Origin: Schaalia radingae
GTDB lineage: Bacteria > Actinomycetota > Actinomycetes > Actinomycetales > Actinomycetaceae
DNA length: 64,000 nt
Direction: 5' to 3'
Assembly (NCBI RefSeq): GCF_900106055.1
Contig: NZ_LT629792.1
Location: 1,426,001 to 1,490,000 of the forward strand
Shown here: positions 12,344 through 31,832 of the stretch, one piece after another
How positions within the stretch are numbered: the stretch's first letter is position 1
How the letters are laid out: the number at the start of each line of letters is the position of its first letter
Notes under the pieces: model-generated
Database searches by the model: none
What the model saw: the letters and a program-made list of their open reading frames with translations, nothing else
What the model was told of the DNA's origin: nothing
Position numbers and translations under genes: made by a program

Positions 12344-12728
12344 CAGATGAGCCGGCCTGTACGCCGGGTTCTGTCCTGCTGACCGAAGTCGGCAGCGGCG
12401 ACCATTCCTCTAGGACCAGTGTTGCCACTGGCCTCAAGCAACCTACCCGCAAGCGTGGAGCGGGCCGCTCGTACTTGCTGCTCGGTTTTGCTCCGGGTGG
12501 GGTTTACCTAGCTAGACCAGTCACCTGGCCTACTGGTGGGCTCTTACCCCACCTTTTCACCCTGACCGCTGGTGCGAAGTGTTCTTCGCGCCAGCGGCGG
12601 TCTTGTTTCTGTGGCACTTTCCCGCGGGTTTCCCCGGGTGGCTGTTAGCCATCACCCTGCCCTGTGGAGCCCGGACGTTCCTCGTCACCGCATCACGCGG
12701 TGCCGCGGCCGCCCGGCCGACTCATCTG
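12344..12728 (-). ncRNA. rnpB: RNase P RNA, bacterial type A
   Basis: Catalytic RNA of tRNA 5' maturation, about 385 nt on the minus strand. The 5' conserved block GAGGAACGTCCGGGCTCC and the 3' block ACAGAACCCGGCGTAC are both present. The ends pair as helix P1 (GATGAGTCGGCC with GGCCGGCTCATC), which fixes the approximate boundaries. It is convergent with map, whose stop is 5 bp beyond the RNA 3' end. Confidence 0.95.
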
Positions 12729-29294: not shown

Positions 29295-29936
29295 GTGAAC
29301 GATATCCGAACGCTTCGTGCAGGAACGCTGATCACCCATGAAATCGAGATCAAACGCTCACGCTTCATCGCCACTCTGGCCCGCGCCGACACCGAAGATG
29401 AAGCGCGCGCACTCATCGACATGGTCCGTTCGGAGCACCCACAGGCGCGGCATAACTGTTCGGCCTACCTCATCAGTGCGGATGGCCGAAACGCAATCCA
29501 GCATTCCTCTGACGACGGGGAACCATCGGGCACAGCCGGCACGCCTATGCTTGAAGCCCTCAAAATGTCTGACACGTGGAATGTGACAGCTGTCGTCACC
29601 CGTTATTTCGGCGGAGTGCTGCTGGGTGCGGGAGGCCTCATCCGCGCGTATTCGTCGGCGGTGAGCGAGGCACTGGCCCGCGCACCTCACGTGGTCATCA
29701 AGACTCTCAGCATTGCTCGCATCACTGTCGATTTCAATGATGCCGGTAAGTTCCAGTCGGAGCTGCACAGCGCGAATGTGCCGATTGTGGGCAGCACGTG
29801 GGATGCGCGTGTCCACCTCGACATCGCCGCCACTGACGACGACATCGAGCAGTGGGTAGACCGCGCGATGGTTCTGACCCACGGGCAGGCCAGCGTTCAC
29901 GTAACGGGACGAACTCGAATAGAAGTGGACGCATGA
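29295..29936 (+). CDS. YigZ/IMPACT-family protein
   Basis: 213 aa. Conserved core: EIKRSRFIATLARADTEDEARALIDMVRSEHPQARHNCSAYLI, SSDDGEPSGTAGTPMLEAL and VVTRYFGGVLLGAGGLIRAYSSAVSEAL. The C-terminal domain (about 140-205) is the DUF1949 ferredoxin-like fold. Biochemical role unsettled; ribosome association has been proposed. GTG start with GGAGGGG about 12 nt upstream. The 318-nt gap before it holds only a near match to the word described among the findings (29195-29209). Confidence 0.9.
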   Translation: MNDIRTLRAGTLITHEIEIKRSRFIATLARADTEDEARALIDMVRSEHPQARHNCSAYLISADGRNAIQHSSDDGEPSGTAGTPMLEALKMSDTWNVTAVVTRYFGGVLLGAGGLIRAYSSAVSEALARAPHVVIKTLSIARITVDFNDAGKFQSELHSANVPIVGSTWDARVHLDIAATDDDIEQWVDRAMVLTHGQASVHVTGRTRIEVDA

Positions 29937-29954
29937 GACAAAAACCCGTACAGT
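29926..29954 (+). promoter_or_regulatory. candidate promoter of the cysK leader
   Basis: TGGACG (29926-29931), 17 bp, TACAGT (29949-29954), overlapping the end of the YigZ-family gene. Initiation near 29961 would place the cysteine-rich leader ORF about 25 nt into the transcript. Confidence 0.45.
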
Positions 29955-29985
29955 GTCGCATGTGATTCACACAGCAACGAACCAA

Positions 29986-30069
29986 ATGAACGCGACACAG
30001 GTCGCGCGGCGTTGCGTGCACGCAGTTTCTGCGTGCTTTTTCTGTATCTGCACGGCGGAGTGTCTCTAG
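29986..30069 (+). CDS. cysteine-rich leader peptide (candidate attenuator ORF)
   Basis: ATG-started 27-codon ORF ending TAG at 30067-30069, 116 bp before cysK. Cys occurs at residues 10, 17, 20, 22 and 26; the tail reads CFFCICTAECL. Five Cys in 27 residues is far above the level in neighbouring proteins. No Shine-Dalgarno. It overlaps the intrinsic terminator at 30018-30041, with its first Cys codon (30013-30015) just before the 5' arm. A GTG at 30016 would give a 17-residue version. Cysteine-codon leader ORFs controlling Cys genes are known in mycobacteria; function here is inferred. Confidence 0.6.
   Translation: MNATQVARRCVHAVSACFFCICTAECL
30018..30041 (+). terminator. intrinsic terminator inside the cysK leader
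   Basis: Perfect stem GCACGCAG/CTGCGTGC, loop TTT, then TTTTT. It may simply end the YigZ-family transcript, or act as the attenuator of cysK; it lies within the leader ORF. Confidence 0.8.
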
Positions 30070-30114
30070 GGCGAATAGCCTTCTCCGTACGTCTATGCGT
30101 ACTGCTGTTCGCCC
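30069..30114 (+). promoter_or_regulatory. alternative hairpins in the cysK leader
   Basis: GGGCGAA (30069-30075) pairs with TTCGCCC (30108-30114), enclosing GTACG/CGTAC. Alternatively GGC/GCC (30070-30080) nests within CGGAG (30056-30060) paired to CTCCG (30083-30087). The two folds exclude each other. Confidence 0.45.
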
Positions 30115-30185
30115 GCATGGTGATTGAACCAGCCCATTTTTCTTTTTCTTTCCTTCTTGACTTTTTCTCTATGGAGTGATTTTTC

Positions 30186-31127
30186 ATGACCGCTATCGCC
30201 GCAAACGTCACTGAACTCATTGGCCGCACCCCCCTCGTCGCTATCAATCGCCTCGCGGGCGACAACGCCCACGTCATCGCAAAAGTAGAGGCGTTCAACC
30301 CTGCGTCATCTGTCAAGGACCGTATCGCTGCCGCCATCATCGACGCTGCCGAGGAATCGGGCGCCCTCAAGGAAGGCGGAACCATCATCGAGGCCACCTC
30401 AGGCAACACGGGTGTCGCACTGGCAATGGTGGGCGCCTCGCGTGGTTACCACGTGGTCATCGCGATGCCCTCGTCGATGAGCATTGAGCGCCGCCTGCTG
30501 ATGAAAGCCTTCGGCGCTGAACTGGTGCTGACCGACCCGAAGGACGGCATCTCCGGTGCCGTGGCCGCAGCCGAGAAGATTCGTGACGAACGTGAAGGCT
30601 CAATCATCGCCTCACAGTTCACCAATCCTGCCAACCCGCAAATACACCGCGTCACAACCGCGGAAGAAATCTGGGCGGATACCGACGGCACGGTGAATAT
30701 CGTCGTTGCCGGAGTTGGAACTGGCGGCACGATCTCAGGTGTGGGCGACGCGCTCAAACAGAAGAACCCTGATATCCAGATCATCGCCGTGCAGCCCGCT
30801 GAATCCCCTATGCTGACCGGTGGCGCAAGTGGCCCCCACGGAATCCAAGGAATTGGACCGAACTTCGTGGCCGACACTTATAACGCACAAGTCGTCGATG
30901 AGGTGATAGATATCGACACCCCCACTGCTCTCACCTTTGCCCGCCGCGCCGCTGCTGAAGAAGGCCTGCTTGTCGGCATTTCCTCGGGTGCTGCCCTGGC
31001 TGCAGCAACCCAGGTTGCTGAGCGTGCTGAAAACGCCGGTAAGAACATCGTGGTCGTGTTGCCCGATACGGGCGAGCGATACCTGTCAACTGCGCTGTTT
31101 GAAGATCTGCGCGACGACAACGAGTAA
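30186..31127 (+). CDS. cysK: cysteine synthase A (O-acetylserine sulfhydrylase)
   Basis: 313 aa PLP fold-type II enzyme making cysteine from O-acetylserine and sulfide. PLP lysine in NPASSVKDRIA; TSGNTGVALAMVGASRGY is the substrate loop and GVGTGGTISGVG the phosphate-binding loop. GGAG lies 9 nt before the ATG. Followed by cysE after 96 bp, giving the two-step serine-to-cysteine pathway. Preceded by a 245-nt leader with a Cys-rich ORF and a terminator, so regulation by cysteine is plausible. Confidence 0.96.
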   Translation: MTAIAANVTELIGRTPLVAINRLAGDNAHVIAKVEAFNPASSVKDRIAAAIIDAAEESGALKEGGTIIEATSGNTGVALAMVGASRGYHVVIAMPSSMSIERRLLMKAFGAELVLTDPKDGISGAVAAAEKIRDEREGSIIASQFTNPANPQIHRVTTAEEIWADTDGTVNIVVAGVGTGGTISGVGDALKQKNPDIQIIAVQPAESPMLTGGASGPHGIQGIGPNFVADTYNAQVVDEVIDIDTPTALTFARRAAAEEGLLVGISSGAALAAATQVAERAENAGKNIVVVLPDTGERYLSTALFEDLRDDNE

Positions 31128-31223: not shown

Positions 31224-31832
31224 ATGGCACTTTCTCCCTCACGTGCGCTTAAGCTTCTGCGAGAGGACCTCGACACTGCGCTCAAACGTGACCCAGCTGC
31301 ACGATCGCGCACTGAAGTGGCGTTGACCTACCCTGGTGTGCACGCGCTGTGGAGTCACCGTGTTGCGCACGCACTGTGGCAGCGCAATGTGCGTATACCG
31401 GCTCGCCTGATTTCCTCTTTCGCGCGTGTCATGACTGGAGTTGATATCCATCCGGCCGCGCAGATCGGCCATCAGGTTTTCATTGACCATGCGACCGGTG
31501 TCGTGATCGGCCAGACGACTGAAGTGGGCGACGACGTCGTGATCTTCCATGGTGTCACGCTGGGCGGTGTGTCGATGAGTCCGGGGAAGCGTCACCCCAC
31601 AGTGGGGCACCATGTCATGATCGGTGCGGGCGCAAAAGTTCTGGGCCCGATCACCATCGGTGACAATTCAAAGGTGGGTGCGAACGCCGTGGTGACCCGC
31701 GATGTTCCGGAATGCTCGGTGGCCTTGGGGGTTCCGGCCAGGTCGCATCCTTCCCCCGAATCGGTGGAAGAGCCGGACGATGAGCTGATTGTGGATCCGA
31801 ACTCCTACGTGGATCCGTCCCTCCTGATTTAA
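31224..31832 (+). CDS. cysE: serine O-acetyltransferase
   Basis: 202 aa, SAT N-terminal helical domain followed by a left-handed beta-helix of hexapeptide repeats ([41 protein letters not shown]). Activates serine with acetyl-CoA for CysK. The tail ([19 protein letters not shown]) ends in Ile, as needed for insertion into the CysK active site in the cysteine synthase complex. AAGAGG supports the start. Confidence 0.95.

Follow-up and report, generated by a model that had tools for sequence, protein, structure and literature searches.

A cysteine-codon leader ORF and a covarying hairpin upstream of cysK in Schaalia radingae and its relatives

The region between yigZ and cysK

We analyzed the DNA between yigZ and cysK in a 64,000-nucleotide stretch from Schaalia radingae (the window, along which all positions are counted). 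The two genes that follow this region encode cysteine synthase A and serine O-acetyltransferase, and cysE presumably lies on the same transcript as cysK. The features of the locus are as follows.

29295-29936: yigZ (NCBIfam gene name), 5' of the leader region
29926..29954, plus strand: likely promoter, TGGACG - 17 nt - TACAGT, with its -35 within the 3' end of yigZ
29962..30069, plus strand: 35-codon Cys leader ORF with a GTG start, probably leaderless, stop TAG at 30067-30069
30018..30041, plus strand: 8-bp hairpin followed by T5, inside the ORF, not conserved
30061..30063, plus strand: last Cys codon of the leader, TGT, five bases 5' of P1
30069..30114, plus strand: hairpin P1, 11 bp (30069-30079 with 30104-30114), predicted from covariation and folds
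30080-30086, plus strand: conserved 5' bulge of P1-P2
30087-30092 with 30097-30102, plus strand: P2, a conserved stem inside P1
30104..30133, plus strand: alternative hairpin, weak and not conserved, 3 nt 5' of a T-rich stretch
30115..30185, plus strand: G-poor, pyrimidine-rich stretch carrying the cysK SD, a possible Rho entry region
30186..31127, plus strand: cysK, cysteine synthase A (TIGR01139, 411.9 bits, exceeding the cut-off)
31224..31832, plus strand: cysE, serine O-acetyltransferase (TIGR01172, 242.2 bits, exceeding the cut-off)

Each promoter hexamer (TACAGT at 29949-29954) matches its consensus at four of six positions, and the pair was not picked up by a strict consensus promoter scan of the window. 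An Rfam scan of the window at the gathering cut-off returned five matches, none of them in the leader region. Among 20 leader loci searched against Rfam with E up to 5, the only match was a weak one on the opposite strand (ssnA, E 1.3). Elsewhere in the window, Rfam places an RNase P RNA of class A at 12344-12724 on the minus strand.

A preliminary description of this locus reported a 27-codon ORF at 29986-30069, with Cys at 10, 17, 20, 22 and 26. The ORF exists as claimed, but its ATG at 29986 is an internal in-frame start downstream of GTG 29962. Read from the GTG, the 35-residue leader peptide is VIHTATNQMNATQVARRCVHAVSACFFCICTAECL, and its Cys codons begin at 30013, 30034, 30043, 30049 and 30061. 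The GTG lies 7 nt 3' of TACAGT, which follows TGGACG after 17 nt, an arrangement that suggests a leaderless mRNA. A TANNNT stretch stands 6-7 nt ahead of an in-frame ATG or GTG in 17 of the 19 leaders of the genus, against 17 of the 2474 ATG or GTG triplets in the window. Judging by these spacings, the ORF in the window is probably leaderless and starts at GTG 29962. Outside the genus, an SD-like stretch precedes the leader ORF in 49 of 53 leaders (by a loose test). At L098, L099, L102, L161 and L162, a GCAGCA close to the SD of the leader is the complement of the Cys run TGCTGC, and the leader start region might there pair with its own Cys codons.

The last Cys codon and the hairpin P1-P2

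The 19 aligned genus leaders all have TGT as their last Cys codon, with GGGCG five bases on. The distance of five bases from TGT to P1 holds throughout the 72 anchored leaders, 49 of which were found by rule and 23 by eye with the TGT in view. A further 38 named leaders, which complete a set of 110, were selected by a pattern that contains TGT and TAG. Codon choice is thus unbiased only in the 49 rule leaders and in 31 matches at named loci, and in these, from scans that permitted TGC, the last Cys codon was TGT in 49/49 and 31/31. Elsewhere in the 72 leaders, Cys is mostly encoded by TGC (TGC 119 : TGT 48), so TGT is special to the last position.

The other Cys codons gather shortly before this TGT. 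Within the preceding 24 nt, TGY triplets number 222 in frame, compared with 20 and 52 in the other frames. Across the 110 leaders, Cys codon frequency peaks two to five codons before TGT (29-46% of leaders), is 15% at one and at six codons and 16% at nine, and is about 2% beyond 11 codons, except for 8% at 16. At least one other Cys codon falls within the eight codons before TGT in 104 of the 110. The base after the last TGT is C in 98 of these leaders, and the residue after the last Cys is L or R in 89. Conservation of Cys codons amid drift, which the preliminary description had proposed as a check, was borne out, since the frame and the near-end Cys codons are kept while other codons drift.

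The position of the stop is similarly restricted. In 56 of the 72 anchored leaders, the first in-frame stop lies two codons from TGT (+2); in 55 it is TAG, and P1 begins with the G of that codon, as it does in the window (30069). In the remainder, the first stop is at +5, within the 5' arm of P1 (7/72), at +7, in the bulge (7/72), at +1 (one leader) or at +11 (one leader). With stops at +2, +5 and +7, nearly all leader ORFs end within the 5' side of the hairpin. The window has a second in-frame TAG at 30076-30078, also within the 5' arm of P1. At one genus locus (L004), CAG stands in place of the TAG, the ORF continues as far as +11 codons and the stem is divergent; this leader is possibly decaying.

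Covariation strongly supports P1 as a predicted structure. In the genus, GGGCG opens the stem and CGCCC closes it, around a 5'-side bulge and the smaller stem P2. Among the 14 best-aligning genus leaders, 92.9% of cells are paired, and changes on both sides of a pair occur in 20 cells, compared with 8.1 in shuffled alignments. For the broader alignment of 26 leaders (A3, on which the covariance model R2 is based), which were picked for alignability and from which the structure was drawn by eye, the corresponding values are 93.4% paired and 53 cells against 16.5, with both-side changes at 12 of the 16 pairs.

Other hairpins at the locus are not conserved. At 30018-30041, the 8-bp hairpin followed by T5 that had been described as an intrinsic terminator is present and good by itself. 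As a working terminator it did not hold up: anything terminator-like was seen in 3 of the 19 genus leaders, and strongly only in that of the window. Across the 110 leaders, terminator-like sites around the ORF end occur in 7, compared with 235 of 5500 shuffles (4.3%), which is no clear excess. The hairpin at 30018-30041 may be a local addition or a chance occurrence. Two mutually exclusive hairpins had also been proposed downstream. Overlapping structures, P1 and 30104-30133, do exist, but the latter is weak and is predicted to form in the window only when the 5' arm of P1 is blocked. It is followed by CCATTTTTC, so that a trp-like terminator is possible locally, in the window, as far as folding predictions go. 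A conserved competitor for the 3' arm of P1 was sought in 107 leaders, and none was found (mean z +0.28).

The stretch between P1 and cysK is distinguished by its composition. Among the 26 gaps 5' of genes in the window, compared at positions -75 to -15, the cysK gap has the fewest G and the second highest C minus G. The C/G ratio before cysK is 1.92 in the 72 anchored leaders and 1.83 in the 38 named leaders, compared with 1.27 at 32 named loci without a leader and 1.02 in the 26 window gaps. Structure in this stretch is no greater than in shuffles (mean z about 0). Rho is encoded in the genome; a C-rich, G-poor stretch together with rho fits an involvement of Rho, although this is only suggestive.

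Distribution in the genus, the family and beyond

In the genus, a Cys leader precedes cysK at 19 of 34 loci and is missing from 15. The covariance model R1, for which 14 of the 19 genus leaders were used, finds one strong copy, at cysK, in each of the 19 leader-bearing genomes (E 0.0061 or better). On a cysK tree that took in 30 of these 34 loci, the leader pattern needs two changes, which we read as two leader losses inside the genus. The end of yigZ lies close to cysK at the leaderless loci of two genus clades (L010, L014, L015, L018 and L024-L034), and by eye some of L024-L034 have a promoter-like stretch, GATAACAAT or similar, before cysK. At L016, the leader sits much further out, ~330 nt upstream of cysK, and ~290 nt separate P1 from the gene.

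The leader is widespread in the family. We anchored the unit, by rule in some cases and by eye in others, in 49 of 66 other cysK upstream regions, which were chosen at 1-6 per genus among the matches listed. An anchored leader is missing from the other 17, one of which (L138) looks leader-like by eye and was not counted. A rule that combines TG[TC]-NNN-stop with a stem beginning at the stop matched 49 of 116 cysK upstream regions, compared with 24 of 2320 sequences made by shuffling them in 20-nt blocks; Cys codons and P1 therefore occur together beyond chance. The stop was TAG in 48 of these matches and TGA in one. A similar rule applied to 80 named loci gave 31 matches, all with TGT and TAG, against 17 of 1600 shuffles, and matched once in 80 on the opposite strand. 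Twenty-nine of the 31 come from genomes outside the first set and two from genomes already in it. They include Cellulomonas, Demequina, Actinotalea, Sanguibacter, Luteimicrobium, Oerskovia enterophila and Georgenia. In Isoptericola, Myceligenerans and Promicromonospora, TGT-NNN-TAG is present with stems below the threshold of the rule, and the rule found no match at the loci examined from Leifsonia, Microbacterium, Arthrobacter, Rhodococcus and Mycolicibacterium. One locus of Propionibacterium sp. oral taxon 192 (L250) has a Cys leader ending TGT CGC TGA ~128 nt before cysK, with no P1-like stem under the rule.

Searches with the covariance models gave a consistent placement. R2 has matches in 125 of the 213 genomes of the family, with two matches in four of these; as it recovers no more than 10 of the 19 leaders known in the genus, the figure of 125 is rough, with many leaders missed and a few chance matches included. 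The placement check took in 87 of the 129 R2 matches, and 81 of the 86 that could be placed sit 39-404 nt upstream of cysK on the same strand. The five placed elsewhere are all weak (E 0.0047-0.0198), and one is in a genome (G009) whose cysK is on another contig. R2 also gave five order-level matches outside the family; judged by eye, only L182 among them is a cysK leader. R1 gave 27 extra matches (E 0.0085 or weaker in relatives, 2.7e-4 or weaker in a class sample); the 11 inspected were judged by eye to be coding, terminator-like or palindromic DNA with no Cys leader. No second operon with the element was found within the reach of R1 and R2, and within that reach the element, on sequence matches, is one that belongs to cysK.

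A proposed ribosome-gated attenuator

In attenuators of the trp/his type, the position of the ribosome on the leader ORF determines the structure of the RNA. The cysK leader shares their short ORF, enriched in codons for the product of the operon, with regulatory codons conserved and the rest drifting; in contrast to them, we found no conserved terminator/antiterminator pair. It also shares traits with the mycobacterial type of leader, namely a probable leaderless start (by promoter spacing, in the 17 of 19 genus leaders given above) and a Cys run near the stop at a cysteine gene. We consider it likely that the element is a Cys-responsive, ribosome-mediated attenuator of cysK-cysE that is gated by P1. 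The amino-acid attenuation of the preliminary description is thus retained as far as the Cys-codon leader ORF before cysK-cysE is concerned, but the switch would not be the terminator at 30018-30041; the conserved partner is P1.

Comparison among genomes provides the ORF, the TGT at fixed spacing, the covarying P1 and the linkage to cysK. From these elements we propose a mechanism in which leader translation, ribosome halting and regulatory sign are inferred. The leader ORF, rich in Cys near its end, would be translated. When Cys-tRNA is scarce, the ribosome would halt on the leader Cys codons; when it is plentiful, the ribosome would advance into the 5' arm of P1 and stop there. Ribosome position would set whether P1 forms, and P1 would set the output of cysK-cysE. 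With UGU in its A site, a ribosome is taken to cover approximately the first four bases of P1, and one at the stop approximately ten. On this assumed footprint, a ribosome halted at the Cys codons that lie mostly two to five codons before TGT leaves P1 free. The sign that we prefer, tentatively and at somewhat less than even chances, is that P1 can form and cysK is expressed while a ribosome is held on the Cys codons, and that a ribosome which has reached the stop keeps P1 from forming, so that cysK is switched off via Rho. With P1 blocked, the G-poor RNA beyond it would be exposed to Rho, which is perhaps the off-step.

The same attenuator could work with the opposite sign, such that folded P1 is the off state, as a terminator or pause hairpin, and a ribosome on the last TGT opens its base. 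A halt at the last TGT would cover about four bases of P1, so this sign fits the footprint too, and the constant five-base gap looks as if a halted ribosome must touch the P1 base. A clear U-tract trails P1 in L044 (T6) and L114 (T5), and a T4 does so in L143. As a general feature, however, a U-tract after P1 is found in only 8 of 72 leaders, with 9.2 expected from base composition, and we rejected P1 as a general intrinsic terminator. Moreover, a halt at the Cys codon that nearly all leaders have within eight codons before TGT would spare P1, and a stop codon within P1 fits poorly; we regard the opposite sign as rather unlikely. A different possibility, to which we likewise give well under even chances, is that P1-P2, with the stop codon in its 5' strand and a sensing UGU five bases ahead of it, is a ribosome-gated switch that acts directly on transcription without a terminator/antiterminator pair or SD hiding, widespread before cysK in the family and in Cellulomonas-type relatives. 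It might, for example, keep Rho off or act on the polymerase.

Three further readings fit the comparisons less well. Translational attenuation through a hidden cysK SD has a precedent in the same kind of ORF, as PMC13236596 cites translation attenuation for the mycobacterial ones. Yet mean predicted SD accessibility is unaffected by ribosome position here (0.451 compared with 0.456, p 0.83, 108 leaders), and on this structure prediction we consider SD hiding improbable. In the version first put forward, a ribosome halted at the first Cys codon covers the 5' arm of the terminator at 30018-30041, a good hairpin with T5 in the right place. Since that hairpin is not conserved and the conserved element is elsewhere, and since RNA polymerase would probably be past the hairpin before the ribosome arrived, we hold this version to be very improbable. 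Least probable of all, we think, is that P1-P2 binds a ligand or protein, or that a peptide ending in C[L/R]-stop arrests the ribosome, with the Cys codons mattering little. The conserved 5' bulge and P2, and the L or R that usually follows the last Cys, point this way; against them stand the lack of an Rfam family match and a C-terminal peptide that differs in leaders with a later stop.

Cys leaders are already known from other actinobacteria. PMC1262725 reports them for mycobacteria, Propionibacterium acnes and Bifidobacterium longum, and the statement of the preliminary description that none was described in this family agrees with the open literature, in which we found none. In the cysteine section of PMC1262725 (Seliverstov et al. 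2005), the leaders likewise have Cys runs near the stop, and Rho was proposed for them because no terminator was seen; they differ in that no conserved terminator-like hairpin is reported there and in being limited to mycobacteria, P. acnes and the cbs gene of B. longum. Polycysteine leaderless ORFs of M. smegmatis, described earlier in PMC4633059 for mycobacteria, are reported to confer Cys-dependent attenuation (Canestrari et al. 2020, as cited in PMC13236596, PMC9094748 and PMC9031893). As far as these sources describe them, they too are short leaderless ORFs before cysteine genes, with Cys codons clustered at their ends. In the bacteria studied here, by contrast, there is about one copy per genome, at cysK, and a TGT stands at a fixed distance from a covarying hairpin in which the stop lies; SD hiding is not predicted, and outside the genus of the window the ORF usually has an SD. 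The uORFC-8-2 motif of Rhodobacterales cysS similarly joins leader-ORF Cys codons to a conserved RNA structure. According to PMC8632094, it differs in having tandem Cys codons, mostly UGC, in the first stem and a terminal intrinsic terminator; it occurs in alpha-proteobacteria and precedes cysS rather than cysK, and Cys attenuation is proposed there.

Cys leader ORFs are therefore known, whereas the hairpin P1, the TGT spacing and this set of hosts appear undescribed within Rfam and the open literature (subscription papers being mostly outside that coverage). For a large group of actinobacteria, a concrete RNA anatomy can thereby be assigned to cysteine control, and the covariance models R1 and R2 would permit direct annotation of the element. 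The element also poses a puzzle, that of how a ribosome on one UGU, beside a hairpin mostly without a U-tract, would switch an operon.
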